From the NCBI RefSeq assembly GCF_019649055.1, contig NW_026570457.1:43781-107780 (forward strand): a DNA stretch of 64,000 bases, given 5' to 3'. This stretch comes from Paramacrobiotus metropolitanus (lineage: Eukaryota; Tardigrada; Eutardigrada; Parachela; Macrobiotidae). The position numbers and the translations under genes were made by a program. This document shows positions 1 to 58,278 of the stretch, one piece after another. The notes beneath the pieces are model-generated. The model ran no database searches, was not told the origin of the DNA, and was given only the letters and a program-made list of their open reading frames with translations. Position 1 is the stretch's first letter; each line of letters starts with the position of its first letter.

Positions 1-132
1 AAAAATTAAGGGAACTAATTTCCCCGGCTGAAATAAATTTTGGCCGGTGAAAAATAAATTTTCTTAATTTTTCCGGATTTTTCGCCGAATTTCCCACGGC
101 AGAAATAATTAAATCAAATTTAAAAATAATTG

Positions 133-303
133 TGACGTCACTACGGCCGATTTACCATACTTAAGATTGACCAATCAGAATCGTGGGGAGAATCCCTATG
201 TTATAAGCCCGTAGTGAGTCACTGTTTTTTGGAAATTTGCACGGGGCGCGCAGAATCGTGACGTAGGCAGTAATCCGCAAGACCACTTAGTAGTGTGACG
301 TCA
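133..303 (+). promoter_or_regulatory. CRE-like and CCAAT/TATA-like sites in element 1 leader
   Basis: Two exact CRE palindromes TGACGTCA lie at 133-140 and 296-303. A CCAAT box at 171-175 and a TTATAAG at 201-207 lie between them, with a GAGTCACTG about 15 bases further on. Element 2 carries TGACGTCA at a comparable place in its leader (about 53445) together with inverted CCAAT (ATTGG) sites near 53484 and 53506. The shared arrangement suggests an internal promoter or enhancer in the leader. This is inference from motifs only. Confidence 0.4.
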
Positions 304-626
304 TAGCTCGGAAGTTCGACCAGGGTTACGCCCGACGTGACCAGGCTGGTGGGTACACTTTCCGCTACGCCGGCCCAGCAAACCAGAGCCTAAATCATCG
401 GACTTCAACCGGTCGAACAAGTCCAACAAATCGGACAAATCGACCAGCTCGGTAAGGGAGAAGCGAGATCAGCGGATCCTTGGAGCCGGTCTGACCCAAT
501 CGCCGGAGGAAAGCTTCGAGGACGCTCAGAACCGGGCGTTCCTGGAGTCGCCCCAAGATAAACCGGAGGTCCTGTATGGCCCAACAGGCCAGAATACAGT
601 GAACCCGGAGCCTGCAGCTGGACATT

Positions 627-643
627 GGCGCCCAATAGGTGCC
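627..643 (+). repeat. CAATA-loop hairpin, reads Pro-Ile-Gly
   Basis: Stem GGCGCC/GGTGCC closes a CAATA loop, with one G-T wobble. Here the core is read as Pro-Ile-Gly. This is the first of about 25 hairpins of this family across element 1. Confidence 0.75.
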
Positions 644-832
644 ATGCCGACTACGTTCCCGGTGATTTCCTCGGACAGAGGAGTCTCGGACCCTGCACTA
701 GGTAGGGCCGCGGTGTCACTGGACATGGGTGACCCGGTGCCACCCCAACAGGGGGGCATGGGATCCAGAATGGACCCGAGGCAAACCCCAATAAGCCCTA
801 ACCAGACCGGAGGGAAGGTTCCGCCGGCCCGG

Positions 833-1425
833 GAGGTGACCCACAAGGTAAGTTTACCGGACAAAACCCCGGTATCCCCGGTTGGAAACCCTAAGTCTCC
901 GGGCAATACCCGGAAATCAACGTCCCCGGACCAGAAACGGACCCCAGGGACCCCGGAGGTGACGTCACCGGACCCGAAGCCCCGGACCGGGACCCCAACT
1001 CGGACCTTGGACTCACCGAGGCCGACTTCGGGAAGCCAAAAGTCGTCATCGGTGACACTGCATCCGGCTAAGACCCCTAACACCGGGGCTCGGACCCCGA
1101 CCCGACAGGTCGACACCCCGAAAACCCGGGAGGTGACCCACAAGGCGGGTTCACCGGACAAAACCCCGGTATCCTCGGTTGAAAACCCTAAGTTTCCGGG
1201 CAATACCCGGAAATCAACGTCCCCGGACTAGAAACGGACCCCAGGAACCCTGGAGGGGAAGTCACCGGACCCGAAGCCCCGGACCGGGACCCCAACTCGG
1301 ACCTTGGACTCACCGAGGCCAACTTGGGAAGCCAAAAGTCGTCTTCAGGGACATTGCAGCCGGTTGAGACCCCTAACCCAGGGGTCCGGACCCTGACCCA
1401 ACAGGTTGGGACTCCGAAAACCCGG
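833..1425 (+). repeat. Tandem duplication of ~297 bp within gag
   Basis: Copy 1 spans 833-1129 (297 bp) and copy 2 spans 1130-1425 (296 bp). They are close to identical apart from scattered substitutions. Copy 2 has changed a CAG to TAG at 1229 and lost one base near 1325, which together break the gag frame. Copy 1 remains open throughout. The damage is therefore younger than the duplication. Confidence 0.85.
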
Positions 1426-3724
1426 TCTGTGACCCCCACTTTTCAGGCGAAAAACGCCGTTTCTCCGGTCAAAAACCGGATCTCACCGGCCGAAACCGGG
1501 GCAACCCAGGTTATTGGACCCTTACCCTCGGTACCCGGACCCCTACCCTCGGTATACGGACACTCACACGCTGTAACCGAACCTTTACCCGGGACCGACT
1601 TGACCGAGGTTACCCGACTTAAAGAAATGTTGGATCAGTCTCGGGCCGAAGTGGAAGCCCTGCACCAAGAACTGGAGCAGCGGTCAACCCATTTAATGGC
1701 CATGGTGAACCGAGCGGACACCCGGGCCGCGACCTTACGGGACGAAAATGACCAGCTCAGCCAGGCACTGCAGAATGCAGATACTACCGTTGCCGAGCTC
1801 CAGTTAGAGCTGGACAACGAGGCTGATGCCCGCACCCACCTGAAATTCAGCTATAAAGAGGCTGAAAAGGTCATTGAGGCCCAACGAAACCACATTGACC
1901 GGCTGGAAACCGAAAAGGCTCGGTTGGAAGAACTTCTTCAGTACGGCATTGAAGCTTCTCACAAGGTCGTCGAACTGAACCGGGAGAATGACCTTTTGGA
2001 TGCCGAGATCGAACGCTTTACAGCAGAAAAGATCGTTTTGGAGAAGCTTGCGGCTAAGCCACCCCGTCATACCGGACATCGCAGGAGCAACACGGACAAC
2101 TGCAGAACTTACTGTGCCGGTACAATCCTGAACTGAACCCAATAGGTCAGTTAAGGATATCCACAAACCAGACCTACCAGGTCGGGATGGCCCGGATGGA
2201 TCCGTTAACAGGTACTCCGCCGACAGCACCATCAGCTACGGAGCCGGAACGGAACACTTTAACCGCCCGACTAAAAGTGCCAACCCAACCCATAGCGACG
2301 ACAACCATGGCCCCCGGAGGAATGCCCGCAAATGTGGCATTCTTAACCGGTACTGGGCCCGTCGGATCGACCACAATCGGACATCGCCCGGATAGCTCAC
2401 AAGAGAGCTCGGTACTCGGTCCGTATATCCGGACACCCGGACCCGGCCGGGTCAACAGCGTCTCTGGAAGGGAACTCAGGCCGCAGCCGAACCCCATACC
2501 GGGTGCCGCGCAACCTGACTCGGTGAACCCGAGCTCCGACAGACGTCAGGCATTGTCGCGGAACGTAGCCCCAATAACGGCTCCCGCTGCACCCGAGGAA
2601 GAAAGGCGCGAGAACCCAAATGGCTCGGCTTACCGAGACCCAATAGGTCAGGTAGCCGAGCCCAACATGAACCTAGCGGCAGCTCCACTCGGAATGTGGT
2701 TGGGCCAGAACGGCGTTCGGCAGCCGCTACCTTACGCAGGGCAGAACTTCTTGCCGGGACAAAGACAGCCGCAACTAGCGGCTCCCCCGGCCCACCCGAA
2801 CCTATATCCGGTCAACCTCGGACAGCCTGCCGTGGCAGCCCAACAGGCATACCAGGCAGTGCAGCAACCCCCGGTAGCCCAACAGGCACAACCGGTGGGT
2901 CAACTCCAGCAACCCCCGTTACCCAACCCGAGCGTTCTTCAAGCCCGACGAGAGGGCTTTGAAGAAGGCCGAAACCGCTATGAAGAGCGAATGGCTCGGA
3001 TTGCGGCTAAGAAGAACCGGGGCGACCTGCCGAAATTCAACGGCGACGGAACCAAAGTGGAGGGGTGGATCACCAAAATCCGGCGAATCTTCCGCCAGGA
3101 GGTTTGACGATGTCGGAATGACTAACGTCGGCTTCATGACAGAACTGGAAGGTGCTCTGTCCGGGCAGGCCTTAGAATGGTACCAAAACCAGTCAGCCCT
3201 GGAACCCGAAGAGAATGGCTGGCCGGTAGAATACTGGCTTCAGCAGTTTGCAGCCCGCTTCGCGGAAACGGACAAGCAGGTGACGGCAATAATAGACATC
3301 AGCAGTCGAAAGTACAAGTTCGGGCAAGAGACCCCGGAGCAGTACTATGACGCCATCATCAACCTCAAACAACGAGGCAACCTGAGCGATGAGTTGGCCG
3401 TCTTTTACCTGCGGACGAACATTACGGAGCCAAACCTGCGAGCGGCTTTGGATATCCGAATGCCCAAGACAACACAGGAGTTTCGCGACTACATCCGGGA
3501 CTATACACGGGGAAAACCCATGTATCAAGGCGGCAATGTCACCAATTACATCTCCGTCAGAACGGCAACCCGACAGGCCCCCGGCTATATCCAGCATAAC
3601 TCGCCAGGTTACCAGAACGTGCAACCGGGGCCTCAACGACCGAGCCCTCCGGCGACACCATCCTCTCAATCCCGGGCCCAACTGGAACAGACTTGGGCGG
3701 CTATGGCGGCGATGAACCTTAACG

Positions 3725-3741
3725 GGTCCCCAATAGGGACC
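3725..3741 (+). repeat. CAATA-loop hairpin, perfect 6-bp stem
   Basis: GGTCCC and GGGACC pair perfectly around CAATA. The reading frame gives Pro-Ile-Gly. Confidence 0.8.
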
Positions 3742-4323
3742 GCGGTCTCGCCGCCGACTTACGGAAATGCCGGCTATGGCCAGCCCCAACGGGGCTACAG
3801 CCAGCCTTCGAGCCCCGGTTACGGCCAACCCCAGAACGAAAGGTACGGCCACGGAGGTGGATATGGACGCAGCGGAGCCCCACAATATGGTGGCTTCGCC
3901 GGAAGTCCCCGCCGCGGAAACTTCGGAAACCGCAAAGGCGGAAGTGACGCGGCGCAGAATGCCCAGTGGTCACCCCGTACACCACAGCAAGAGGACCGCC
4001 AACTAGCGGCCTACCTATGTGGACCGGATGGAAGCAAAGTTCTTCCAGTGGACCCAGGACGGAACATTTTCCTGCGGTCACTGTAGATGGGGCAACCACA
4101 ACGAGGATAGTTGTGGCTATGCCGGACTCCGGCCCGAGGACAATCCTAACCGGAGATGGTACCGGGATTGGAGGTACCGGTACGATAATGGTTGGCCGCT
4201 TGGATCGGCGAACCAGAATTACTTGAACATCGTACCCCCGCCACGCCTCCGCCAGCAGAACGCTGGCCGGCCTTTCGTGGTGAATATACCACCAGGTCAG
4301 CGACCACAGCTGCCGCCTTTCCC

Positions 4324-4340
4324 GGCTCCCAATAGGAGCC
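4324..4340 (+). repeat. CAATA-loop hairpin read in a second frame
   Basis: GGCTCC and GGAGCC pair perfectly around CAATA. In the surrounding ORF the same core is read as Pro-Asn-Arg, so the shared sequence is not kept for its peptide. Confidence 0.8.
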
Positions 4341-4386
4341 AGGCTGGGCCGTCCCAGGGCAGCCCACAGGGAAACGCTTAAGGTCG

Positions 4387-5202
4387 ATGAGCTCCGGTGA
4401 CTCATTCGACCTTTGTCATCCAACGGAACCACCGGATAAGGATAACCCCACTAACTGGACTAACCTTACGGACACAACTCGGAACTTTGACTTGGATTTA
4501 GCCTCCGCAACGGTCAACGAAGCTGCCAGGATCTTGGCGGCGGGGACGGTAGCCCAATCAGGCACCGGACTTCCCCGGTTCGGAAACTCGGAGAACCGAC
4601 CCGAACCTCGCGGCACCGATAATGCGGCTCCCGGACCAGAAGGTGTACCCGGGAGGATCGGCCATGGAACTTGGACCCGATCGGCAGGAGCTGGAAGTGC
4701 TCCACTCGGCCCAGAAAGTGAAGCCGGAGGGGTCGGCCGAAAAACTCGGAACCGACCGGCCGGGACGAGAAACGTCACCGAGCCGCCCGGAAGGCTCAGT
4801 GCCCAATTAGGCACTACGAGCCACGGGCCATGCGGACAACCTAGGCGCCGGCCCGCAGCCTCACAGGATGCCAGAATGACACCTGAACCGTCACCGGTAG
4901 GCCAGCCGGGAAGACGGCCCGCACACATTGCGGAAGCTCCGACCAAAGAAGTAACGGAGACCTCAGAGGACTGGGAAGCAGTACCCTTGGAAGCACAGGC
5001 ACCCGCCCACTGTCTGCAGCAGGGAGCGGACTTCTTCCAGCGACAACCGGCAAGAACCGAAACCATCGCAGAACGACCCATTAGCCGAACCTTACGGGCG
5101 GATACCTCCGCATCGTCGATGCCTGGAGTAATTAACCGGACAAAGACGCACGGAACACCACGGGCGGGAACTGCTGAATCGCCGATGAACCGGAATAATT
5201 AA
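4387..5202 (+). CDS. Gag-protease linker ORF, unrecognised
   Basis: A 271-codon open frame starts with an ATG directly after the zinc-knuckle frame ends. The product is rich in Pro, Gly, Arg, Thr and Glu with no predicted helix or named domain, and looks disordered. Its position between the nucleocapsid and the protease matches a processing spacer. Element 2 has a similarly placed low-complexity region with peptide repeats. It contains a CAAT(T)A-loop hairpin at 4798. Translation as a separate protein is doubtful; it is more likely part of a Gag-Pol polyprotein entered by frameshift. Confidence 0.45.
   Translation: MSSGDSFDLCHPTEPPDKDNPTNWTNLTDTTRNFDLDLASATVNEAARILAAGTVAQSGTGLPRFGNSENRPEPRGTDNAAPGPEGVPGRIGHGTWTRSAGAGSAPLGPESEAGGVGRKTRNRPAGTRNVTEPPGRLSAQLGTTSHGPCGQPRRRPAASQDARMTPEPSPVGQPGRRPAHIAEAPTKEVTETSEDWEAVPLEAQAPAHCLQQGADFFQRQPARTETIAERPISRTLRADTSASSMPGVINRTKTHGTPRAGTAESPMNRNN
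4798..4815 (+). repeat. CAATTA-loop hairpin read in the third frame
   Basis: AGTGCC and GGCACT pair perfectly around CAATTA. The ORF reads the core as Gln-Leu-Gly, the third possible frame. Confidence 0.8.
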
Positions 5203-5799
5203 CCGGACAGAAGCGCAACAAGCGAGCAACCCGGAGGTGCGCCCCGTAAGACGACCGATCGAGGTCATCACCATACCGGATGAACCCGAAAAGAAGCTCA
5301 CTCAGGCCTCCCGACCGCCGTGTGTAGACACCAATAGTGTCCCCGGCGGATCAACCCTGATCCCGGTGGAACTCACCATCCGGGAGGTGACTATTCAGCC
5401 ATTGGTATCCTCCGGACGACCGAAGGTAGTCCGGGCATGGACACATGAAGTCCAGATTGGACCTGTACCCACCATGGCTATGTTGGACACCGGAGCTGAA
5501 ACATCCCTAATAGAGGAGCGTTTCTGCCGGGCCAACAACCTTAAACTCGAATCCTTGGGGTGCTTCACCAAAATACTCGGTGTAGGCGGACAAGTAGCCT
5601 TTATGGTGACCCATTGCTGTACCGTACCGGTAACTCTGCAAGGATACACCAGCCCCCACACATTTTATGTTCAACCAAACAATTCCGACGTTCCAGTCCT
5701 TCTTGGATGCGATTATCTGCACTCCAAGTTCGTTTTCACCCGGGCGCCGACCCCCAATGAGGGTCAGCGGAACCCATCTTCGGGTGCAGTGCAGCCTAC

Positions 5800-5820
5800 C
5801 CCGATACCAGAGGCATCGGG
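5800..5820 (+). repeat. ACCAGAGGC-loop hairpin, element 1 version
   Basis: CCCGAT and ATCGGG pair around ACCAGAGGC. A second copy starts at 6013. The encoded peptide is Pro-Ile-Pro-Glu-Ala-Ser. Element 2 keeps the same loop but has CCCAGT/ACTGGG stems. Confidence 0.75.
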
Positions 5821-6016
5821 CACGGCAACGAATACGGCTCGGATTAATCGGACGGTTAACCCGATTATCCCCGGACCCTCGATTTGCCCAGAATGCTCGG
5901 ACACCGAACGGAGCCTCATCACGGAGCTGCAAGTCCACAACGCCATAGAAAAGCACATGGCCAAAGTACGGACAACCCGACTGGAACCAGTCAAAGGGAT
6001 ACTAAAGTCTATCCCG

Positions 6017-6042
6017 ATACCAGAGGCATCGGCCTCTGGTAT
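6017..6042 (+). repeat. Perfect 11-bp palindrome made from a hairpin loop
   Basis: The second ACCAGAGGC unit is followed by its own reverse complement: arms ATACCAGAGGC and GCCTCTGGTAT are perfect, with a 4-base ATCG loop. This looks like an inverted local copy of part of the hairpin. Confidence 0.75.
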
Positions 6043-7500
6043 ACTCAGACAAAGATATCGAACTTGGTTCTCCGGCATTCAGCACCTCCTAGAGACCAGA
6101 ACGGTCGGCATAATGGTTGAGCTCGACCGGATCGGCGCCAGAACGGACGACGAGATCCGAGCCGCCCGGGAGGAAAGCTAGGCGGTAATCAGACTAACCG
6201 AGGCCCTTGAAGAGGAGATAATCGAATGGGAAGAGGAATGGATCGTACTCCACGCGCAATTTGCGGAACATCAGCTTCCCATACCGCCGATACTTGAGAT
6301 CCAAGCCCACGAATTGGGTCGACGACTCTTTTGGCACTTCAGAGACCCATATCATCTCGGTTCACTGGACACTGCCTCATTCTGGAGTAAGTTCGGTGAG
6401 AATACCCGGGTAACTCGAGTTGTGCCGGACCCAGAGCCTCCGCTTGAACCCTGCAACTGGCACCAGGCCAAGAAAGTGAGGCTTTGCGGAGACGTACTCC
6501 CACAAGAGGGGTGTCGTCTAGCCAATACCCGGGTAAATGCCCCGGACCAGCAGTATGAAGCCTTAGAATGCCCGATTTGCTGTGAAAATAACGGAGTAAT
6601 CGTCCAAGCCCTCAGAACTCGGAACGAAAAAGTCTGGGAGCATGGTAGGCCAACATCGCCCGGACCTCCCGAACCGGAAAGGCGGGTTGGCCCGGCACAG
6701 GAGACCCCAATTAGGGTTACTGACGGGCTACCCGGACCTTCTGGGGACTTAGGCGACGAAGAAGCAGAAATCGACTTCGAAGCCCCGGACTCAGATGTCC
6801 AGAGCACAAGTGACTCACCGGACACCGACTCCGACAATGAGCCCTCGGACCCCTCGGAGGAACAATCGTCCGAGGAGGATGACGACGATGACGATAACGA
6901 CATCGGCTTCGACCCGTCAGTCCGATGGATAGGGACAGATACACCCTTGAACGGGCCCCCAGAAGGTGGACCGCCCGGCAATCAACCCTCAAAAGGAGCC
7001 AGGGAGCCTCCGAATGAAGGCTCGGGCCATCAACGGGCTGAGTTAACCGCAATTACGGTTTCTCACCCGGCTGACAACCAGTTAACCTTGGCCACGTCAA
7101 GCGATAAAGGCTTAGTCTCGGACATCAACCCCTCCGGAGACGACACATCGGAAGAGGCCTCCACGGACAACAATTCCGGGACGGAACGACGGGTATCCCC
7201 GAGCGACGACGAACAGATTGCCCAACAGGCGACATTCGTCGGAGGCAAACCCGTTGTTTCCGGCCTAACCCTGGTCTCCGAGGCTCAAGCCTCGGTGCGG
7301 ACGACTAAGTCCGACAAGACCCTGTATAACCCATGGAAAAGGGTTATGAAGCCAAAGCCAATAGCGACGGCAACAGAATCTAACCCAACGGTCAATCTTC
7401 TCCGGCTGAATACCGAAACAAGCCTCAATGCGACGACCGGCAACCGGTATTTGTCGAGAACAAGTCCACACTACCCCCGTGCTCGACTTGTGCGATACTG

Positions 7501-9739
7501 GTGCGGACCCTCAGAAGTATGGACCCTGACCGGGAAATCCACTTTGAGTCCTTCCGGCGACGACACTCCGGAGTCCGTCCGATAGAAGACGACATTCAGA
7601 TCTGGCCAACCTGCGACACGGCATGGATCAAGGTCCAGAACGCGACCGAGCACAACCAAGTACTCCGTAGGGGCGCCAAAATCGGCTACATGTACTACTC
7701 GGACCTCTACGAGTATGAATTTGACAATGAGGGCATCGAATGGGAGATTCCCATGGGAGTTGCCCGGGTCGAGAAGAAGGGAGACCGCCCGTACAACCTA
7801 CCGAAGGCGACACAATATGACGCCACTACGGTGCGGACCCAACATAAAGTTGAGCTGCCACCCCGGGCAGTCGTTGTAGTCACGGTTACCATTGACTTGG
7901 GAGTGGACCCCGCTAAGAACAAGTACTTAATGTACCTCGGCTCGGAGGAAGCCTTAGCCGAGGGTATCGAAATGAAGGATGGTCCGACCCCACATGACGG
8001 GAAGAAATTCACCATCCTTGTGGCCAACCATAACAATAAGGAGGTCATCATCCGGAAAGGAACCCCAATGGGACGGATCGAACCGTACGAACATATGACG
8101 GACGACCGAAAAGCCCAGGTCAGACTTACCCAATTAGGTGAGGAAGACCCGGAGATCGTTGAAGAGCAGCGGAAGGCCATCAACTCCATGAAGCTCGGAG
8201 AGAACCTAACCGACGAGCAGCGACAGGTCTTACGGGACATCGCATGGGAATATCGGTTGGTCTTCCCGACCTCGAAGCGTCCCTATGGTGACGTCAAGGG
8301 AGTCACCCATGTCATCGATGTCCAAGGTGCGAAGCCCATCAAAATGAACCCGACCAGAACGGTTGGAAGGGCCGCGAATTCATTTCCAAACATGTCCAGG
8401 AGATGTTGGACCAGGGTGTCATTGAACCCTCTGATGCAGCTTCCCCGTGGTCTTGGCAGCCAAGAAAAACCCGGACGGCTCTGTCGGAACCCGGTTCTGC
8501 ATCAACTACATTAAGTTGAACGCAGTCACCAAGAAGAACAACTACCCGCTTCCCAACCCGGATGAATTGCTGGACCAGAGTGCCGGGATGGAATATTACG
8601 GCAAGGTGGACTGCCAGTCCGGTTTTTGGCAAATCCCAATGGATGAAGCCTCGAAGGACATGACAACCTTCGTAACCCCGGAGGGCATGTACCGTTTTAA
8701 CCGGATGCCGTTCGGAGTCTGCAACGGACCCGCAACCTTCCAGATGCATGTCGATAAAATAACCGCAAAAGCCCGCAAGAAAGGTGTTTTTGCGTATATC
8801 GACGACATCATCTTCTTCGGTCGGACCTTTGAAGAATTCAAAGAAGGCTTCCGAGCCACCCTGGACTGCCTACAAGAGGCCGGGTTCACCATCAAACCCT
8901 CGAAATGCGAGGTGAGGACGGACAAGCTTCCGTTCCTTGGACACGTCCTCAGCAAGGCCGGAGTCCAGACCGACGATGATAAGGTAGCCGCTATTGCGCA
9001 GTACCAACCCCCGAGAACAGAACGCCAATTGCGGTCGTTTCTCGGGTTGGCCAACTATTACCGGAAATTCATTCGGAACTACGCTCAGCGAACCTCAAAG
9101 ATGTATGAACTCCTCCGGAAGACCAACTCTATCCGGACAGACTGGACCGATGACCATACGGCAGAGTTCAACGGTATCAAACAGGCTCTAACCACAACCC
9201 CGGTACTCGCAAAGTTCGACCCGTCCAAGAAGACGGTAATCGAGTGCGATGCCAGTGGAGCCGGACTTGGCGCGGTGTTGTCACAAAAAGACCACCCGGT
9301 AGCTTTTGCCAGCCGAGTACTCCACGGAGCTGAGAAGAACTACGGTGTCACCGAATGGGAATGCCTAGCCGTAGTCTGGGCCGTGCAGAAGTTCAAACAC
9401 TTCATTGACCGCGGACCCTTCACCGTCAGAACGGACCACCGAGCCCTACAGAACCTGATGCGCTGTGAGTCCAATAGACCCGGCATCAACCCCCGGTTGA
9501 CACGGTGGGCATTGGCTCTGCAAGGCAAGGTTATCACCATCGAGTATAAACCCGGAGTCTTCTGCGATAACGCGGACGCTCTGTCCCGATGGCCGTTGGA
9601 ACGACCCGACGATAACGACCCTCATGAAGAACTGGACCAAGTACCCAACTTTGAAGACTTCAAAGACGAGATCCAAATAAGGTCTCTAAGGGTACAACGG
9701 AAGGTTCAGAAGGAACGGAGCCGAAGAAACCCGGACTAA
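7501..9739 (+). pseudogene. pol: Protease-RT spacer domain, reverse transcriptase and RNase H
   Basis: The first part (7501-8300) is a beta-rich spacer with an LPPRAVVVVTV stretch and a MGRIEPYE end, a layout often seen between protease and RT in animal Gypsy elements. The RT begins near 8360. Frame changes at about 8365 and 8440 break its N-terminal fingers. From 8447 to 9739 the frame is intact and includes QSGFWQIPM, the catalytic YIDD box at about 8795-8806, FLGLANYYRKF and the RNase H segment with ECDASG, TEWECLAV and RTDHRAL. This enzyme copies element RNA into DNA and degrades the template. The catalytic core is complete although the N-terminus is not in frame. Confidence 0.88.
8125..8142 (+). 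repeat. CAATTA-loop hairpin within the RT spacer
   Basis: CTTACC and GGTGAG pair around CAATTA with one wobble. It is read as Gln-Leu-Gly. Confidence 0.7.
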
Positions 9740-9741
9740 CC

Positions 9742-11382
9742 TTGGAACCCGGAGGCTTAACGGATGAGGCCCGAGTCGGGTCTCTCCGAGCGGTCGGATG
9801 GAAGCAGACGACCAGAATGCGTCGTCCAGTACCGAAGAATACTCCGCTTCAAGGATGCAAAGTCATCACCAACTGGAATGACCTCGCAACCGCAGATGTT
9901 CGCATAATTAACGTCATCGTACCGGACGATCCGGGCTCACAAGGCGAGTCGAGGGTCGGAACCGCAAGGGTACGAGTAACCGGAACAGCCGAACCGGAGG
10001 CTTCGGGTTCACAAGGCGAACCCGAGGATGAAGAAGAGAAACCCATGGAGTCCAATAAGGAACTACGCAGACTGCAGCTCCGGGACCCTTACCTCCGGAA
10101 ACTGATCGATGAAATGGAGAATCAAGATCAGCTGGACCACAAGTCCCGGCTACTGGAACATTACCAGATGAGCGGAGGCGTACTTTACCGCTTGACCACC
10201 TATAACACCAAGCTGGAACGGCGCTTTGTGGTCCCGCTCTTCATGCGAAAAGGCATCATCCGGGCACTTCATGACGGAAAGACCGGCAACCACTTCGGTC
10301 GTGTGAAGACTCTGGAGGCAGCGAAGCTCCGGTACTACTGGGATCGGATGCTGACCGACGTCCACGACTATGTGGATAACTGCCCCCGGTGTACCCTGGT
10401 GAACAAGCCCCGGACCAAACCACCCGGTAAACTCCAGAAGATGGAGGTCGGAGAACCCTGGTTCCGCGTATATGCGGACTTTAAAGGACCCTTACCTCGG
10501 ACAGAGACAAAGGGATACCAGTATATTGCGGTCATCACCGACCAGTTCACCAAGTTCACCATCGCCCGAGCAACCAAGACAAACTCTGCAAAAGAGTTCG
10601 AAAAATTCTTTGTGGAAGATGTCCTGCTTAAGTACGGCATGCCGACCCACCTTCACACCGATCAAGGATCCCACTTTACGGCTAAGACCTTCGCCAAGGT
10701 GGCTAAGATCTTTGGAATCCAGCATACATTCGGAACAGCCTACCACCCAGAAGGACAAGGCCAAGTTGAACGTTCCATGCAGACGATATGGGACGGAATC
10801 AGGAAGTATTGCGACGCTAAGGATGGTCACAGATGGCACCGAGCCCTGCAATATGTGGTATGCGGAATCAACCGAGCAAAACACGCGACCACCGGGTTTT
10901 CACCCTACTATATGCTGTACGGACGGCAGATGACCATACACCAGGATGTCATCACCGGAACCAATGCACCGGAGCAGTACACTGATAAGGAGCAGTACAT
11001 CCGACGGATGAAAGAACGGCTCCAGCGGGCACATGACATCGCAAAGACGAATATCGACGAAGCGTTCGAAAAGAGTGCCGAAATCTACAATAAGAAGAAG
11101 TCAAACCCGGACTTCCGAAAAAGAGACCTAGTCCTGGTGGAGTATCCCAATAAGGATCCCACCAGGAAGGAACGATACGATGGTGTATGGACTGTTCTTG
11201 ACCATCGCGGACCCAACAACCTTTGGCTCCGAAATGTCGATACCGGAAAGGAAGATGTCGTCGCGGTGGATCGCTGTAAGCACCACCCAAGCAACAAGCG
11301 CCGACGAATAACCCGGTCATACGTCAGAAGCGACCCGAGGGAACCACGGATAACAACCTTGCAACGGTGCCAGACCCCATGA
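9742..11382 (+). CDS. Integrase, catalytic triad intact
   Basis: The frame is open for 546 codons. The N-terminal HHCC zinc site has His at residues 177 and 184 and Cys at 214 and 217. The catalytic triad is Asp246, Asp307 and Glu343, i.e. the DD35E spacing of retroviral-type integrases, inside YADFKGPL, HTDQGSHF and GQGQVERSM. A GPY/F-like segment is not obvious; no chromodomain is seen. There is no ATG at the frame start, so the protein would be made as part of Pol. Integrase inserts the new DNA copy into the host chromosome. The frame ends at 11382 and a Lys-rich AT-hook tail follows in another frame. Confidence 0.9.
   Translation: MEPGGLTDEARVGSLRAVGWKQTTRMRRPVPKNTPLQGCKVITNWNDLATADVRIINVIVPDDPGSQGESRVGTARVRVTGTAEPEASGSQGEPEDEEEKPMESNKELRRLQLRDPYLRKLIDEMENQDQLDHKSRLLEHYQMSGGVLYRLTTYNTKLERRFVVPLFMRKGIIRALHDGKTGNHFGRVKTLEAAKLRYYWDRMLTDVHDYVDNCPRCTLVNKPRTKPPGKLQKMEVGEPWFRVYADFKGPLPRTETKGYQYIAVITDQFTKFTIARATKTNSAKEFEKFFVEDVLLKYGMPTHLHTDQGSHFTAKTFAKVAKIFGIQHTFGTAYHPEGQGQVERSMQTIWDGIRKYCDAKDGHRWHRALQYVVCGINRAKHATTGFSPYYMLYGRQMTIHQDVITGTNAPEQYTDKEQYIRRMKERLQRAHDIAKTNIDEAFEKSAEIYNKKKSNPDFRKRDLVLVEYPNKDPTRKERYDGVWTVLDHRGPNNLWLRNVDTGKEDVVAVDRCKHHPSNKRRRITRSYVRSDPREPRITTLQRCQTP
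9934..10025 (+). repeat. Two ACAAGGC-loop hairpins
   Basis: At 9934-9950 GGCTC/GAGTC (one wobble) closes ACAAGGC. At 10003-10025 the same loop is closed by an 8-bp perfect stem TCGGGTTC/GAACCCGA. Both encode Gly-Ser-Gln-Gly-Glu. The loop is constant and the stems differ but stay paired. Confidence 0.7.
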
Positions 11383-12097
11383 GGGTCGGCCCGCTCGCAA
11401 CACCCGGGCCCGAAAGGCTGAATTAGCCGAAGAAAAGCCTGAAGAATCGGCTAAAGACCCTAAGCAACCGGACTTGACGTCGGTGCAGGACCCCGATAAG
11501 GGTAGGCCCGGCAAACCAAGTCCGGTCGCCAACCTTGGACCGGAGAAGCCGAAAGGTAAACGAGGCCGACCGAGGAAGAAGCCCCCGTCGGACTTCGAAA
11601 CACCAGCCCTGCAAGAATTGCAGAAGCAGGCCATCATAGAAGATGAAATTGCGGCTACACTTGGGCAACCGGTGGACTTAGCCAAATCACCCAAATCAGC
11701 CGAGGCTACCCCGGATAAGCCGGAAGACATAGCCAAGAAGCCTAAGGCTACCTCGAAGAAGTCGAAGGAGCCCAAATCACCAAAGGAAAAACCGGCCAAA
11801 GAGAAGAAACCGGTGAAGAAGCGGGAAAAGAAGCAACCCGACACACCCGCCCCGGTCGCATCGACCAGTAACCAGGCTGAACCCCCGACTCCGAAGCGAA
11901 AGTATGGGACAGCAAAGAAGCCCAAGCTAACAGTCCAAGAAGTGCTTGAAGAGGCTCAAGAAGCCGAAGACGAAGCCCACAAGGACATCCTCGACAGAAT
12001 TGCCGAGGGACGGGCTGAACCCGCAACTAAAGTTAAGAAGCCAAAGGCTCGAAAGGTTCCCACCTCGGTGGTTGAACCTCGGCCACAGGCCAACTGA
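11353..12097 (+). CDS. Lys/Pro-rich tail with AT-hook, follows integrase
   Basis: This frame is open from about 11353 and overlaps the end of the integrase frame, so it probably was the C-terminal tail of Pol before a frameshift, or is reached by one. It encodes a KGKRGRPRKK segment at about 11548-11578, an AT-hook core (GRP flanked by basic residues) that binds the minor groove of AT-rich DNA. The rest is Lys, Pro, Glu and Ala rich, with a short acidic helical stretch (EEAQEAEDEAHKDI) near the end. AT-hook tails occur on some chromatin proteins; here it could steer integration. It lacks an ATG at the start. The function is inferred. Confidence 0.55.
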
Positions 12098-13209
12098 AAT
12101 GAAATCCGCCGGTAGCCGGACCCCAAAAGGGACACGGCTCAGCATAAGACCGGTAAATGTACACCCTTACGTTCCCAATAGGGACCTGGACAAATCTTTC
12201 CGAGACCGGAGAAACCGGACCCCCGGACAGCATTCCACCCGGAACTTGTCACGGCAGCCTGCTACTGGCCGGACCCTCAATAAGGGATACGGCAACTGAA
12301 ATCCATCTCATGACGCTGGCAGCACACCCTCAACGGGACACGAAACCCAATAGGTTCCCCAACAAGCACCTGACACCCCCAGTCAGCTTATCGGTAGCAA
12401 CGAGGCTACCCCCGGTACAACCTTCGATGGCGGTAGTGACCCCAATAGGGTTGACCCCACCTCTTCAAATAAAGCCAACTGGCCCGTACCATCGCTCGGA
12501 GAATCGCGCCGACGGACGAAGGCTAGCCATCAAGGACGATCGGAGGCTCAGCATGGGCCCGGTAAGCTTGGACACCAGCAAACCCCCGATGAACTAGGAC
12601 TCACCGGTAGCCGGACCCCAATAGGGTTAGGCTTACCATAAAACCGGTCAAGAAGGACATGACGACGTCTCCAATATAGCCGTTGACGAACTTCACCCGG
12701 ACAGACTGGAAGGGAAGTATCGCAGATCGCGTTAACCACGTTCTGCTACCCGTTCGGACCCTCAATAAGGGATACGACGGTAGAACGCTCGCAGACCGCG
12801 GAAACTACATCTTTTACACGACCGGACCCTCAATAAGGGATACGGTGGGTTAACTCACCCGGTACTATGTCCAACGAACCCTATGGAACGGACTCCCCGG
12901 ATTGACCCGGCAACTACGAGTGAAGCCGTCGGAATTTCAGTGCTCGCACCGTACCGGAACGTCTTCCGCGGTTTCCCCCGGACAGAATCCGTCAGAACTT
13001 TCGGATCCTCCGGCACCAACAACCTTCATGGCTCAACCTTCGTGTCCTTAACCACATCTGCTACCAACATCGCAGATCGCGTCTTCAACCACGATCAACT
13101 ACCATCACCGGCCCAGAACGGAGCCTTTACCCGAGCCAATACTGTCCAAGACCGCAGACCGCGGCTTTCAACCACATCAAGGATCATCATCGAACCCAAC
13201 AGGCCCGGC
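12098..13209 (+). other. Non-coding 3' region with CAATA hairpins
   Basis: Short open frames here show no conserved motif. CAATA or CAATAA-loop hairpins recur at about 12168, 12269, 12344, 12436, 12612, 12760 and 12826, mostly with ACCC/GGGT-type stems. The base use (frequent CCGGAC) matches the rest of element 1. Confidence 0.6.
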
Positions 13210-13622
13210 ATCAACCCTCTCAACATTGCCCAATAGGCGACCGGAGACGAAAATAAGGGTTGTTGCCCGGACAGATCGTCCTGCAGACTGTAACCACGAC
13301 TGGCCTGTGGACTTTAAACCAGCCAACACGGATGCCAGCAAACTCTAACTTGGCAGCCGAATCTAACCCTGGGATTCAACCTTTGGGCCCTGGAATCGAC
13401 TTCAGAGTCCGGCTTCAACCCTTCCAATGTTGCCCAATAGGCGACAGAGGTGTAAAACAGGGTTTTTGCCCGGACATAATGTTAAGCAAACATGATTTGA
13501 AGCAGAATACAAACCTACCATCGGACTCTAGCTTCGTAGCCGAGGTTGCCACTGGACTTCAACTTTTCAACCGAGGCTAACCCTCGGATTGGACCCTCGA
13601 GGCCTGGCTCAGCCCGGTCTAT

Positions 13623-13639
13623 GTTACCCAATAGGTGAC
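13623..13639 (+). repeat. CAATA-loop hairpin in the 3' array
   Basis: GTTACC and GGTGAC pair around CAATA with one wobble. Neighbouring array units have TTGCC/GGCGA instead. Confidence 0.7.
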
Positions 13640-13805
13640 TGGACACGAAATCACGGGTTTTGTCCGGATGAAAACCTCGGAGCATCGAGGAGGAACCCCC
13701 GAACCAACTGGGGGCCGGACCTTGCCCGGAGATATACCTTTTATCGGATCAACAGGGCTCAGACCCTGCCCAGAAGCCTAATACCCCGGTAGCAACCCTA
13801 CCCTC

Positions 13806-13822
13806 AGCACCCAATAGGTGCT
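13806..13822 (+). repeat. CAATA-loop hairpin, perfect stem
   Basis: AGCACC and GGTGCT pair perfectly around CAATA. Compared with the neighbouring array units the change is on both sides of the stem. Confidence 0.8.
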
Positions 13823-14525
13823 AAAGGATGACTTAAAGGGTTCTGCCCGGATGGATCCTTTATCAAACCGTTGACCATGGCTCGCCTTGGACTTAGAATC
13901 ATCATCCGAGGCTGCCAACGGACTTAAACTTTTGACCGGGGCTACCCTCGGGTTTGACCCCTCGGACCCCGGATTTGACGTCAGAGTCCGGCATTAACCC
14001 TTCCAATGTTGCCCAACAGGCGACAGAGGACAATTATGGGGTTTTGCCCGGACAGGACCTTCAACCGACCCAGTAACAATGACTCTAATATGGCAGCCGA
14101 AGATCCCACCGGACTTTAACTTTGAAGCCGAGGCTGCAATTGGACTTTAACTTTTTCACCGAAGATGAACCTCGGATTGGACCCTTGGAGTTCGGCATTA
14201 ACCCTCCCGATGTTGCCCAATAGGCGACAGAGGACCATAACAGGGTTTTTGCCCGGACAAGGTATCTAGCGCATCGCGTAACCACGATCTGCCAAAGCAG
14301 CCACGGATCCCATCGGACTTTACCTCAATAACCGAGGCTGCGATTGGACTTCAACTGTCTGACCGAGGCTGACCCTCACATACCGAGGTTACCCCGGATC
14401 AGACCCTTCAAAGCCTGACATCAACCGGTCCAAGTTGCCCAATAGGCGACAGGACGCAAAATTACGGTTTTTGTCCGGACGAAACCTTTGAAAACCGGTA
14501 CTTTACCGGATAATTCGCCCGTAAG

Positions 14526-14542
14526 AAGACCCAATAGGTCTT
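14526..14542 (+). repeat. CAATA-loop hairpin, perfect stem
   Basis: AAGACC and GGTCTT pair perfectly around CAATA, in non-coding 3' sequence. Confidence 0.8.
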
Positions 14543-14977
14543 ATTCCTAACCCAGAGAGGATGCATCATGGCTTTCGCGGATCGCGACGGTGCCTCTCCA
14601 TTCACCTGACCTTTTGAACCCCTGTAACGGAGGTTCCATTCAACTTTAACCGGAGGATTCCCGGTCGGAAGTGAGTTTCAAGCCCGTTTCTCACCCGGCT
14701 ACGGTGATTCCACCATCTTACCCGAAGTCAACCGGTCGGAAGTAGGCTTAAGCCCGGCCTACTTGACCCTATACTGAAGTTTTACCGGTATCATCGGGTA
14801 TCCCGAGAACCGATGCCTCGGACTCGGATGACAGGATAACTGTTGGACAGGAGACCCAGGAAACGGACGTCGTCCGTGTCGGAATAAGCCCCGGATCAAA
14901 GACCCGGACCAAAGACTTTGATATTTTTTTTTAACTTTCTTTTAACCTTGAAATGATGTTTATTTAGAATTTAACTT

Positions 14978-14989
14978 GAGAGAGAGAGA
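14978..14989 (+). promoter_or_regulatory. Polypurine tract of element 1
   Basis: A GAGAGAGAGAGA run lies just before a TG that starts the 3' LTR. Such a tract primes plus-strand DNA synthesis. Its position 3' of the repeat array and 5' of the LTR fits. Confidence 0.6.
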
Positions 14990-14990
14990 T

Positions 14991-15628
14991 TGATGTTTTA
15001 TTTTTATTTTCGCCGTTACGGATCGTCATCAACAGAAGCCTACACCGGTCCAACAAGAAACCCGACCGACCTCCGGATTTCTGCCGTGAGTTGTATCGCC
15101 ACCACGGGTCCGGAGGAGAACGCGTGACCGGAGAGACCCACACCGGACACCCCGAGGCGCAGCCACCGACCCCAATAGGGTCGTGTGCGGAGCGGGCACT
15201 GGGACGGTATGAGACCGGGTCCTTCGCAGGGGCTCGGACTCCCGCCCAGAGGCATGTCAGGCCGGTCGCTATGGCAGCCTACGAGATGGCAGCCAGCGAC
15301 AGCCCTGCTTCCGGTGTGCTGACTGAGACACACGGAGTCGCACTCGCTATCGTACGCCGTATCGGCCTCGACTCAGGCTCAGCTACGCCTTGCCACACCT
15401 ACGGCTTTACGTCTCGGCCAATCAGCGTTCGTTCGCTCGTGTTGGATTTGCCCAGTGCCGCAGATAGGCATTTTCTATGTTACGGCTCATTCAGCCGCTT
15501 ATTCCAGTTTAGTCATGATTTTCTCTCACGCTGGCCACTTGCCATGCGTTATGCCCATGCTTTACTGCTGTACACAATAAAGCCTCATTACTCACTATCG
15601 TGAGCCCTCTGTGTTGTGCTGCTGATAG
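14991..15628 (+). repeat. 3' LTR of element 1
   Basis: The LTR is taken to start at TGATGTTT directly after the polypurine tract. It has a CCAAT box near 15419, a CAGTTTAGTC initiator-like site near 15507 and a polyadenylation signal AATAAA at 15576-15581. The CAATA hairpin at 15167 lies inside it. The end is placed at about 15628, where a terminal-inverted-repeat element begins, but without the 5' LTR it cannot be proven. A 170-codon open frame at 15091 is taken as chance. Confidence 0.6.
15167..15183 (+). repeat. CAATA-loop hairpin inside the LTR
   Basis: CGACCC and GGGTCG pair perfectly around CAATA. Being inside the LTR it would occur at both ends of an intact element. Confidence 0.8.
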
Positions 15629-16112
15629 TTGGAGTTAGGAAGTGGATCGAACGCGTTGAACGGTGGCTAATGGGAAAATTGCGCAAAACGCTACACAATG
15701 CCTGCCACACAACGACCGTTGAATAGCGTTCGAAAGTTCTTGTGTTTTGGTAACACTGATTAGCCCGTTTAATACTGATATAATTCTTTTGGAGTTCCAA
15801 TCCACGCATTTTCCTGATTTTTCCTCCCGTGTACAGCAGATTTTCCATGTCAGTTTATTTAGTTTAAAAATTTTAAGCGCAAACTTTGACTTTTTTTTAC
15901 TAACGGTGTTGCTTTTCCCCCTTATAAAAGATCTGCTCGACAAACTTTTAATTTTTGACAACATCACAATTTGCAAGTCTGGCGGACTCGTTATCTGCGT
16001 TACATGATTTCCTTCTGATTGGCCGTCATTTTTGCTGTTGTGCGGCGTGCTGCGGTTGCGCACTTCCAATATTGGCCACGGTTCAATTCGTTCGATCGAC
16101 TTCCGACTCCAA
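15629..16112. mobile_element. Terminal-inverted-repeat element, ~484 bp
   Basis: The left end (TTGGAGTTAGGAAGTGGATC) and the reverse complement of the right end (TTGGAGTCGGAAGTCGATC) agree over about 50 bases with roughly 75-80% identity, continuing through GAACG and GCGCAA blocks. Between the ends the sequence is AT-rich with no meaningful ORF. This is a MITE-like or old DNA-transposon remnant. No target-site duplication is clear. It abuts the Gypsy LTR. Confidence 0.55.
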
Positions 16113-53056: not shown

Positions 53057-54081
53057 CGAGGCTGCTGGGCACAGGCGCCGAGAAGCCACGAAAGTTGGCA
53101 GCACCGAAGGAGGTGCCAAAGAGTTCAGTTTTACGCGCTCCACCAAATTGGCTGTAGAGCGACCTGCTGGTAGGCCTGACAAGCCCAGCAGAAGGCAGAC
53201 GAGGTCGGAAAAGGAAGGCGCCAAAACCGTGCGGAATACGGCTGCGCGGGATCGGATCGTGGAGAAGAAACGCGATCATCTGGATCATTTTTGGCGGAAA
53301 TCGGAACGGTAAACAGGTAAAAACCGTTATTAATTATCGGATTGGCTAGCGCGTAAAAAGCGCAAATTTCATTGGTCCTTACTGAGCTGAGCTAGACGGA
53401 GGCGGAACTTTTGCACTCGGCGCGCAAGTCTGGTCGTCGATCTGTGACGTCAGGCAGGTCAGAAAATTTTAACAGGTCACCGTGATTGGTCAGTTATATG
53501 AGCTGTGATTGGTCGAAATTTTTACCGGTAAAATTGAACTAGACGATCTCATCACGAGCTCCCAAGTAATGTAAATGATCTTTTCTTATCATAGTTGATC
53601 TGATACGAGCTAGTAGCAGCTGTTTTCGATCGAAACAAGTTGATTAAAAAGTTGACCAGTCGGACCTGAGATCGATCTCTGACTTTGAGCTGAGCTGATA
53701 GTGACCTCCATAGATGAGCTGAGATGATCTAATTTGATCTCTTATACGAAACTTATTCATCGAAATCGATCTATTCTGAGCTAAAACGAGCTAATTCTAA
53801 TTGAAACGAGCTGAGCAACAGGTGATCTGAGTTGAGTTTGGATCGATTAGCTGATCTCACAACGAACTCGAAACGAACTTTAGCAGCTCAGCTGACATCC
53901 GTAATTGATTATCAGCATCTCCGAAGTGAGCTTATCGAACTTTTTATTGAAAAAGTGATCTTCTAAAACGAACCGAGCTCATCTCTCGAGCTGATAAAGT
54001 GATCTATAGGGATCATAACGATCATACTATAACGTGTGTGTGAGATAAATCGACAGGTGCGTCTGAGTTATCCGATTAAAG
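53057..54081 (+). promoter_or_regulatory. Element 2 leader with CRE and GAGCTGA words
   Basis: No long frame. A TGACGTCA site lies at about 53445 and ATTGG sites at 53484 and 53506. From 53550 to 53990 the words GAGCTGA, GATCTGA, ACGAGCT and GATCGAT recur many times, giving a low-complexity, palindrome-rich leader. Confidence 0.45.
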
Positions 54082-55407
54082 ATGGAAAAAGAGATCATCG
54101 AACCGACATCTAACAGCAGTCAGGGGAGTCGAGGCTCCCGCGGATCTCAGCAAGGCGCACCTAATCCGTACAAGAAGGACCTGAACTCATACACACGTCC
54201 CGTCGCACATGATCGGAGCACCCGGGCACCTAAAGCCTTTGAGAGGAAGGACTCTCGAGGCTCGGATGCGACCTACCAAAAGGCACTCGAAGCAGTGTCA
54301 GGTCAGGAGAGCTCCAGCGACGACCGGAAACGATCCCCACGTCGGCGCTGAAACAGCGAGGTGAACCAGCAGGTCACCAAAGAAGGAACGAGCTCACAAC
54401 GAGCTAAGGAGGTGGATGTGACATCACAAAATGATGTCAAGATCAGCCCTGCCACATCGGAGCAGGTCAAAGATGCTGATCTGACTAAACCGGACCTCAC
54501 TGAACAGTCAAATGACGAAAAACTTGATGAGCTGAAGTTGGGCGATGTCTCACTTGACGATGACGTCACAGTGGAAGATCTATTTGAGAGCCCAATGCAG
54601 TTCGACGAGATGATGCGAAATCAGAAGCTCAACGATGAAGAGTCGTACCTCACCGAAGACGATGTGACGATGAACATGTCGTTCAGGACGGCAATGAAGG
54701 ATGCCGACCGAGCTGAGGGGATGATATCGTTCAAAGACATACCCGAGCATCTAATCGAACGAACTCAAACTGGGAAGATCATCAGTGTCCGATCTCCATC
54801 TCCGAACAGTCCCACCTCGAATCTGAAGAAGCAAGTCAGAGAGTTACAAACGTCACTGGAAGATAAAGAATGCCAGCTGCTCCAGAAGAAGCAGGAATAC
54901 CAGAAGCGGATAAGCTCACTTGAAACTCACGTATATGAGATGGAGCAACAGCAGGGCATTCTGGAAAATGAGGCAACTAAATGGAAGATCAGATACGAAC
55001 GTCAAAAGGAGCTCGCTGAAGAAGCCCAGAAGGTGGCTGACGACAAGGAAGTCGAAAAATTCATCGCGGTTGACGAGCTCAACGAGAGCATGTCAGAAGA
55101 ATCGGCTGAGAGATCACGTCACTTAGCGGAATTGAAAGATCAGTGTGACGAGCTTCGCAAGAAGGCGAACGAAGCTGAACTGAAACGAAACGAATATGCA
55201 TCCAAGCTCGCCAGCGACACAGAAGCTGGCCACAATGTCAACAGATATGCTGAAGCTCAGAAACGATCTGAAGCTGCGGACGAGAACATCGCCACCTCCA
55301 AAGGGAGTCGCAAGCTCATCAGAAACGAGCTGATGAGGCACTCCAGGTGGCAAAGGAGCTCACGGAGCTCGGAGCAACTGAGGGAGAGCGACTCAAAGGG
55401 GAATTAA
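54082..55407 (+). pseudogene. Gag N-terminal extension with coiled coil, one TGA
   Basis: A good ATG at 54082 opens 89 codons of Ser/Arg/Gly-rich protein ending at a TGA at 54349. The same frame continues open to 55407, so a single substitution splits the protein. The second part is acidic and then forms a long coiled coil (about 54820-55200, with RELQTSLEDKECQLLQKK). The layout matches the gag extension of element 1. Beyond 55350 the frame is lost. Confidence 0.65.
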
Positions 55408-55437
55408 AGAGGTTAACGAGGAAAATGAGAAACTCAC

Positions 55438-56388
55438 ATGAACGAAAGTCAAAAGTGGCAGGCTCAAGCATACCGGCTGGACACAATGGTCACAGCTCTC
55501 GAGATAGCTGACAAGGAGAATCAACGAAAGGTCCATGAGCAGCTCGAAGAGAACATCAGGCTCAACACGGAGCTGACCGAAATGGCGACAACGGCAATGC
55601 TCAGAGAAGATGAAGCTACAGAATGAGAAACCAGCTGAGATCAGCAGCTGAGGAGTACACCCGGTTAGAAGGTGAGGTGACCCAGCTAGTCGAACAGATC
55701 AAGAAGATGGAAAATGAGACCGAGAAGATTGTACAGAAAAGACATTCCAACTTCATAATCATATGCAAAAGTGAAACAGGAGAATTCTAACCTGAAAATA
55801 CAACAGGAAGAATTCCAGCTGAAAATCAAACGACTGGAAGATGAGAACAAAGCTCTCCAGGTGACAAATAAGCACAAGGATGAACAACTATGTCAGTTCG
55901 GTGTGAAGAAAGCAACCGACGAATCACCCCCGCCCAGTTACAGTAAGGCACAGGAAAAAGGAACTGGCGGGAGCGCCCACTTCGAAATGCCGCTACGAAC
56001 GGGTGGCGGCAGAGGTGATCCGAAAATGGAAAAAGACGATGAAGCCTCTGATAAACGGAACCCGTCGAGTAGTCACCAGCCATTTATGAGCTCCGGTGAC
56101 CCATCGCAGTCTCAACAACCCATTGAAACGGCAGTTAAAGACGATGCAAATCGAGATGCACGGTCCCCTCGACATGAACATGACGGGAGATATTTCAGAG
56201 AAATCCCAAATGAACGAAACCAGCGGAATGAGCGAAACGACCGAAACGAAGATCGGGTCCAAAGGGAATTCAATAGGTCCATTAAAAACATGGGCCGAAA
56301 AACCGACCTAGCAACCTTTGACGGTAACCGAGATGCTGTGAATGGATGGATTCGCATTATAAAGAGACACAGCGCACATATGATCTGA
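55438..56388 (+). pseudogene. Gag coiled coil end and start of Gag core
   Basis: Two pieces in different frames (55438-55626 and 55771-56388) carry the end of the coiled coil, a low-complexity Pro/Ser/Gly linker, an Asn/Arg/Glu run (RNERNDRNEDR) and then TFDGNRDAVNGWI, the start of the Gag core. A frame change near 56360 follows. Confidence 0.6.
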
Positions 56389-57749: not shown

Positions 57750-57800
57750 GCGCCGGTGAGCCTACTGATCCTCCCGAACCGAAACCACCGGATAAAGGAG

Positions 57801-58085
57801 GAACACAGAATCGGACTGTGTTCGAGATGGCTAAAAAGATGCCATCACCCGTGGGCAAAGTACCACAGCCGCAGAATCGGACTGCAGGCGAAACGGCTTA
57901 TAAGATGCCGTCACAGCAGCTGAAGGAGATGGCTCAAAAGATGCCATCACAAGTGGGCAAAGGACCACTGCCGCAGAATAGTACTGCGAAGTCACCTCAG
58001 AATCGGACTGCAGGTGAGATGGCTCAAAAGATGCCATCACAAGTGGGCAAAGACCACTGCCGCAGAATGGTACTGCGAGCAACCA
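57801..58085 (+). repeat. Tandem peptide/hairpin repeats after gag
   Basis: Units encode variants of QNRTAGEMAQKMPSQVGK. Two hairpin types alternate. One has loop AATCGGA, AATAGTA or AATGGTA between stems GAACACAG/CTGTGTTC (57801), GCAG/CTGC (57871), CGCAG/CTGCG (57972) and GCAG/CTGC (about 58061). The other has a 9-base loop such as TAAAAAGAT between GATGGC/GCCATC (57826, 57928, 58018) or ACGGC/GCCGT (57893). Confidence 0.75.
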
Positions 58086-58278
58086 GGTGAACAATAAGGC
58101 GAGATCACCTTACTGCAGCGAAGAGAAGCTGAAAGAACGACGTGCTCAGCGTAATGAGATCATCCGAAAAGCGAACTTGAAGAAGAAGATGGAAGAAGAA
58201 GGAAACCGATGAGCAACATGCCAGATTCCGGAATTCCTCTGTAACCGAGAAAAAGACATCCCACCACCTGCCGCACCA

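Follow-up and report, generated by a model that had tools for sequence, protein, structure and literature searches.

Fixed-loop RNA hairpins dispersed along giant Ty3/Gypsy elements of a tardigrade differ in their loop between three lineages

Introduction

Why does one retrotransposon carry about 30 short hairpins that have the same loop, while the stems below that loop are free to differ? This question is raised by a stretch of 64,000 nt from the tardigrade Paramacrobiotus metropolitanus, which is called the window throughout and to whose positions all bare coordinates refer. The first 15.6 kb of the window comprise most of one long terminal repeat (LTR) retrotransposon, of which this copy is approximately 16.7 kb long. 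It belongs to the Ty3/Gypsy group, as it has LTRs and encodes a protease, a reverse transcriptase (RT) with RNase H and an integrase in that order. We define the hairpin core as CC-CAAY(U)A-GG, which comprises the loops CAATA, CAACA, CAATTA and, in a few cases, CAACTA. As shown below, these hairpins are RNA-level structures, which are dispersed over the element on its sense strand only, and each of three lineages of related elements has a loop of its own. From the sequences we consider it probable, at roughly 55%, that they are dispersed, lineage-specific sites on the genomic RNA, which would be read by an element protein, probably Gag, for selective packaging.

Hairpins in excess of chance, on one strand

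Between positions 627 and 15183 there are 27 cores, compared to a mean of 0.36 and a maximum of 3 in 500 dinucleotide shuffles of this region. The same shuffles gave hairpins of six pairs with a CAAY(U)A loop and any closing pair at a mean of 0.07 (maximum 2) and hairpins of five pairs at a mean of 0.16 (maximum 3), whereas the element has 17 of the former, 15 of them at CC-GG cores, and 24 of the latter. Shuffled sequence, which a preliminary description of these hairpins had proposed as the control that could speak against them, thus comes nowhere near the observed numbers. Moreover, CAATA was the most enriched loop without any prior choice when all words of 3 to 10 bases were tested, with 17 out of 35 distinct occurrences having four flanking pairs (0.64 expected, Bonferroni p 9e-18). 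A third-order Markov model predicts 0.215 occurrences of CCCAATAGG on the + strand; 17 are present, and the reverse complement is absent. In local folds the inner two pairs form with a probability >0.5 at 24 of 28 cores, but only in 9 of 84 flank-shuffled controls.

The genome (169.8 Mb, 533 contigs) was searched for relatives with the RT, and 97 of 1678 candidate places were scored. Five further copies with the same cores were compared, namely A, B and C on contig C1, D on C4 and E on C5. The six copies have between 28 and 38 sense cores each, 195 in total, and no antisense core is present in the window element or in any of the 15 pieces of copies A-E. Rfam gave no match at the gathering score for window positions 1-15700. 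In IMG/VR, a 15-base hairpin pattern matched 22 stretches, and the search made with the RT gave three pattern matches with no relative among them.

A stem of about six pairs that is free in sequence

On 61 non-redundant sites from the six copies the stem is approximately 6 bp long and consists of the inner CC/GG and of covarying pairs at positions 3-6, and pairing from position 7 outward is near chance. Watson-Crick pairs at positions 3, 4, 5 and 6 are present at 55, 38, 37 and 31 of these sites, respectively, compared to 19, 15, 18 and 16 when the partners were shuffled. The same four positions contain 27 G-U pairs and 17 A-C mismatches, compared to about 34 and 31 in the shuffles. As A-C mismatches, which G-U pairs would become on the antisense strand, are depleted more strongly than G-U, this is what is expected for folding of the sense RNA. 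For all 25 pentaloop cores of the window, 87% of the cells are paired compared to 61% in shuffles, and the covariation is 0.609 compared to 0.147, with values of at most 0.162 in slid registers, so that by this score the covariation asserted in the preliminary description holds against shuffled controls.

At orthologous sites with a stem of at least 5, taken with the window as query, the CC/GG is identical to 99%, the loop to 92% and the flanks to 78%. Cores of the window are kept, with Y allowed, at 8/11, 10/13, 12/13, 10/11 and 12/13 aligned sites in copies A-E, respectively, compared to 19-23% of all 9-mers that are kept exactly. Double compensatory changes occur by our own tally at five orthologous sites in seven site-pair combinations; one of these sites is a hairpin with the loop CAACA and five pairs at 576..592. 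Among 257 aligned site-copy comparisons, with reciprocal ones counted, 225 have an intact core, 31 a substituted one and one an indel, and in none is the whole hairpin missing. Further 123 comparisons were unalignable and hence uninformative on the presence or absence of a hairpin.

Sites from the 5' part to the 3' non-coding region

Within window positions 1-16000, 31 sites match the ten loop variants searched for. CAATA, CAACA or CAATTA cores account for 28 of them, 27 of which lie within 627-15183. The sites range from the 5' part of the element over pol and the downstream open reading frame (ORF) to the 3' non-coding region, and are thus not confined to the leader like a classical 5'-leader packaging signal, although half of the cores (14/28) lie within 12174-15171. 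All hairpins named here are on the + strand. In the 5' part, CAATA hairpins with seven and four contiguous pairs are found at 627..643 (frame 2) and 2635..2651, and a CAACA hairpin with seven pairs at 1393..1409 (frame 1). GGTCCC-CAATA-GGGACC at 3725..3741 is in frame 2 and 5' of the protease ORF, and GGCTCC-CAATA-GGAGCC follows at 4324..4340, where pair 3 is T-A in the window and C-G in copies A-D. Further downstream, there are CAATTA hairpins with five pairs at 6702..6719 and with six pairs at 8125..8142 (frame 1, loop altered in copies A-D), and a CAACA hairpin with five pairs at 7217..7233, which is in frame 1 and whose core is retained in copies A-E. The 3' non-coding region has four CAATA hairpins at 12170..12629, whose cores at 12174, 12346, 12441 and 12617 have 5, 4, 6 and 5 contiguous pairs, respectively. 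They are followed by an array of seven units spaced about 180-220 nt apart at 13205..14470, which contain one CAAYA hairpin each (cores at 13229, 13433, 13627, 13810, 14012, 14216 and 14438) and of which the one at 13810 is paired through another stem sequence. The last hairpins are AAGACC-CAATA-GGTCTT at 14526..14542 and CGACCC-CAATA-GGGTCG at 15167..15183, which is identical in copies B, C, D and E.

The six hairpins singled out in the preliminary description (3725, 4324, 4798, 13806, 14526 and 15167) were all found at their places. Its assignment of the family to gag, pol, the 3' array and the LTR has to be corrected in one point, since the hairpin with the core at 15171 lies outside the LTR, about 70 nt 5' of the aligned 3' LTR that starts at ~15255; for the rest, the hairpins do occur throughout the element. 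In a few CAATA hairpins the loop is closed by different pairs (904, 1201, 5332, 12278 and others). Two of these, at 904 and 1201, are GG-CAATA-CC hairpins, one in each unit of a sequence of about 300 bp that is duplicated in tandem close to the 5' end of the element (828-1438, 92% identical over 213 bp).

The loop variant depends on the reading frame

The reading frame was tallied for all 195 cores, with stop-to-stop ORFs of at least 200 codons, some of which are surely not genes. Among the 100 cores within such ORFs, frames 1, 2 and 0 account for 41, 55 and four, respectively, so that the earlier statement that the core is read in all three frames is right for two of them and overstated for the third. 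Frame 1 contains 30 CAACA and 11 CAATTA cores but no CAATA, which would read as a TAG stop there; an example is AGTGCC-CAATTA-GGCACT at 4798..4815. That CAATA is missing there is dictated by the way in which ORFs are defined, and the informative part is that 41 cores with other loops fill this frame. Frame 2 has 30 CAATA, 16 CAACA, five CAATTA and four CAACTA cores, and outside of ORFs 73 of 95 cores are CAATA. It looks as if CAATA is the preferred loop, and CAACA and CAATTA are the versions permitted by coding. Some CAACA cores are located in Gln-rich repeats (PQQGY) of the gag-like ORF, and among CAACA cores with weak stems some may be by-products of such repeats. Since the cores are present on the sense strand only, the stems are compensated and the loop variant depends on the frame, selection acts at the RNA level. 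The preliminary description had already proposed selection on the nucleic acid, and the agreement of loop variant and frame as well as the compensatory changes at orthologous sites bear this out.

Related lineages have loops of their own

By RT identity and DNA similarity, related elements were grouped into lineage II, with an RT 81-86% identical to that of the window, and lineage III with 78-81%. The first examples were two stretches on contig C25 for lineage II (L049, L050) and two on C27 for lineage III (L051, L052). In the following tests distinct occurrences with five pairs are counted against expectation. CAAY(U)A loops reach 19/76 (0.52 expected) and 22/126 (0.75) in lineage I, that of the window, but 0/115 on C25 and 0/60 on C27. 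Lineage II has instead the heptaloop MACRSAA, i.e., [AC]AC[AG][CG]AA, on unrelated stems such as CTGGT-AACGGAA-ACCAG, TCCGC-AACGGAA-GCGGA and ACGAC-CACGCAA-GTCGT, with 14/59 compared to 0.47 expected. A second copy of lineage II (L057, on C86), which is 74-77% identical to L049 over the 5' half and 89% beyond, has 11/33 (0.25), including 7/18 (0.13) in the diverged half. When one position of this loop was changed, the counts were near chance at six of seven positions, and position 5 kept 2/18 (0.15 expected). The loop of lineage III is the tetraloop YANC with a YAACC variant, with 28/925 compared to 5.2 expected, and a copy 76% identical (L056, on C68) has 16/414 (2.4). The narrower class CAAC/TACC, chosen on L051 and L052 only, gave 6/137 in L056 (0.79, P 2e-4), 4/139 in L055 (0.64, P 4e-3) and 3/150 in L054 (0.68, P 0.03), the last of which is 93% identical to L051 and hence not independent; the same applies to L053, which is 97% identical to L049. 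Since L049-L052 are the stretches from which classes II and III were first derived, the P values there are not blind, and YANC was settled after L055 and L056 had also been seen. L057 and L056 are later copies, but have common ancestry and some sites with the first ones. All other cells are at chance with P >0.1, which are the off-diagonal classes, the antisense strands and 37.5 kb of other window DNA. Thus, each of the three examined lineages uses its own loop and both new classes recur in diverged copies, which is shown more weakly for lineage III.

What reads the hairpins?

The preliminary description had offered a recurring RNA loop bound by an element protein as one of two readings, and this one is favored by the sense-only cores, the higher tolerance of G-U than of A-C, the compensatory changes, and the frame- and lineage-dependent loops; its RNA part is borne out, and the binding protein can be put forward as the probable counterpart. 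We propose that the hairpins act as cis-acting recognition sites that are scattered along the genomic RNA of these giant Ty3/Gypsy elements, in which a stem of about 6 bp with a free outer sequence would present a fixed loop, CAAY(U)A in the lineage of the window. The reader would be an RNA-binding protein encoded by the element, most likely Gag, which could bind many sites along an RNA of 17-27 kb. It would thereby pick out and compact the genomic RNA of the lineage to which it belongs, to the exclusion of RNA from related lineages. Recognition by a protein that each lineage encodes for itself fits a loop that is fixed on free stems, recurs about 30 times in sense orientation in coding and non-coding parts and differs between lineages. 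In its strictest form this would be an orthogonal code of RNA self-identity, in which each Gag reads its own loop only, so that cousins with 78-86% identical RTs are not cross-packaged; we put this stricter version at a little short of even odds.

The gag-like ORF B contains a C-X2-C-X4-H-X4-C motif, which we take to be a zinc-knuckle pattern. Over the stretch with this motif, copy D and the window copy, which have the same loop, agree at 90% of the residues, and copy D and lineage III at 41% (over 422 residues). Several observations weigh against packaging by a lineage-specific Gag. Pfam calls no zinc knuckle in ORF B, the match between copy D and lineage II (33%) stops short of the motif, and outside the motif region the identity between copy D and the window copy drops to 27-68% despite the same loop. 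Since integrase (46-60%) and the downstream ORF (26-46%) also diverge between lineages, divergence alone does not single out Gag or prove coevolution. Regarding the hairpins themselves, five of the 28 window cores (744, 2138, 2839, 2878 and 13195, four of them CAACA) have only two or three contiguous pairs, and the claim of about 25 hairpins with covarying stems thus stands for the number of cores and for pairs 3-6 but not for each single stem. Pairs with a change on both sides were no more frequent than in shuffles for the 25 pentaloop cores, and with the window as query 22 single changes break a pair, compared to 19 one-sided and nine two-sided changes that keep it. The loop of lineage III is degenerate and enriched only 5-7 times. 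The triloop AAC was dropped as a lineage loop, as it is mildly enriched in lineage II (8/665, P 0.008; 4/309, P 0.015) and III alike, in counts that include repeated copies from arrays. Finally, none of the three classes is above chance in 10.5 kb of a distant Gypsy element (window 53.5-64 kb, RT 48% identical).

The main rival explanation is that an element protein binds the hairpins not for packaging but to control how the unspliced genomic RNA is exported from the nucleus, stabilized or translated, similar to human immunodeficiency virus (HIV) Rev with its response element or to CERV. Many scattered sites would suit cooperative coating, the elements have large additional ORFs with no Pfam match, and there is a precedent in the LTR retrotransposon Cer1 of Caenorhabditis elegans, whose genomic RNA requires its own CERV protein for export according to the available part of the report (PMC10309623). 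However, no candidate export protein was identified, and HIV Rev, as far as the source excerpted here describes it, binds one structured region instead of dozens of scattered ones. Although the present data do not separate export from packaging, we regard export as unlikely. Less likely still is a host RNA-binding protein that reads the loops for localization, stability or germ-cell sorting. Several cellular RNA-binding proteins see their targets as a fixed loop on a free stem, which is the form found here, but three loops for three lineages in one genome are unexpected with a single host reader, and no class is above chance in the other window DNA.

Mobile palindromic DNA repeats inserted into the element, the second reading of the preliminary description, are highly improbable. 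The many copies of a short hairpin unit do resemble the repetitive hairpin elements of organelles, as the accessible part of PMC2800124 presents them, but mobile palindromes should occur in both orientations and be present or absent as whole units, and neither was seen: antisense cores are absent, the stems have no common sequence, the loop variants obey the reading frame, and the 257 aligned comparisons, beside 123 unalignable ones, contain no clean empty site. We give practically no weight to chance, composition or a by-product of coding such as Pro-Ile-Gly or Gln-Gln repeats, which the shuffles, the covariation against shuffled and slid registers and the cores in non-coding 3' regions and in two main frames contradict for the CAATA and CAATTA classes, while single CAACA sites, with some in PQQGY repeats and four of the five weakest window stems, may be by-products.

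Other features of the elements

According to Pfam, a retroviral-type aspartyl protease (PF13975, PF00077) is encoded on the ORF piece 5189..6181, RT and RNase H on 8435..9739, and the zinc-binding domain and core of the integrase on 9655..11382, all on the + strand. The aligned part of the 3' LTR (15255..15627, + strand, 373 bp) is 98.7% identical to the 5' LTR, which precedes the window and whose matching segment starts at position 42671 of contig C237. Copy D is approximately 26.5 kb long with LTRs that are 99.8% identical over 423 bp. It has a very long ORF 3' of the integrase (L019:5640 to L020:3374), in pieces of 1453 and 1123 residues and open where the two stretches meet, which has no Pfam match and of which stretches 26-46% identical are found in lineages II and III. 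Its long ORFs overlap in differing frames (L018 3313-4686, 4413-7760, 7675-8556 and 8270 onward; L019 to 1935 and 1788-5477), and with nearly identical LTRs in this copy programmed frameshifts are possible.

The sense strand of window positions 1-15600 is poor in T and has 425 short hairpins, about half as many as the antisense strand with 922; therefore, the hairpins with the fixed loop are conspicuous against the weak folding of the sense RNA. Some further words are biased to the sense strand as well, which are CCGGAC in window 1-15700 (51 compared to 10 reverse complements), CCGACC in L050 of lineage II (35 compared to 11) and AGGGCCAA in L051 of lineage III (8 compared to 1). The distant Gypsy-type element at window 54000-64000, whose RT is 48% identical to that of copy D over 414 residues, has an A-rich + strand and is truncated by the contig end.

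Comparison with known systems

The common motif of dispersed packaging signals is usually loose, which makes them difficult to prove. Since the motif described here is nearly exact, is present about 30 times per copy and on one strand only, is bounded at about 6 bp and differs between three sister lineages of one genome, the idea of dispersed signals becomes directly testable with purified proteins. Should the packaging reading hold, it would account for the way in which retroelements that share a genome and have similar polymerases avoid copying the RNA of each other, and for the condensation of an RNA of 26 kb, and orthogonal pairs of hairpin and protein would be useful as RNA tags. A lineage specificity of this kind would also result from coat protein-operator pairs like those of the phages MS2 and PP7, in which each of the related coat proteins recognizes a hairpin of its own, but there is one main operator per phage genome, compared to 28-38 cores per copy here.

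Among the matches listed in the open-access literature, no titles or openings of abstracts describe such hairpins in LTR elements, and a paper on tardigrade transposons (PMC11071193) names Gypsy once in the available main text and neither Paramacrobiotus nor hairpins. The repetitive hairpin elements of sponge mitochondria (PMC2800124) are likewise families of many short hairpins. However, that source, in its accessible part, describes them as invading, whereas the hairpins of the tardigrade elements have no more than the loop and two inner pairs in common and a fixed orientation. The packaging and dimerization signals of retroviruses and Ty1, e.g., of mouse mammary tumor virus, are also structures of the genomic RNA recognized by Gag, but according to the excerpted accounts they are located in the 5' part of the RNA, whereas the tardigrade hairpins extend to the 3' non-coding region. 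Closest are the dispersed packaging signals of RNA viruses (MS2, picornaviruses, the hepatitis B pregenome), for which the available part of PMC6281560 likewise describes many scattered stem-loops with a common loop motif on the genomic strand, as found here, and the MS2 loop motif (x)xYA formally resembles CAAYA. For the MS2 hairpin, binding by the coat protein is demonstrated, whereas for the tardigrade hairpins a bound protein is proposed from the sequence. The latter differ from the viral signals of that source in their nearly invariant loop and the sharp boundary of their stem, in being carried by an LTR retrotransposon and in the use of different loops by sister lineages of one genome.

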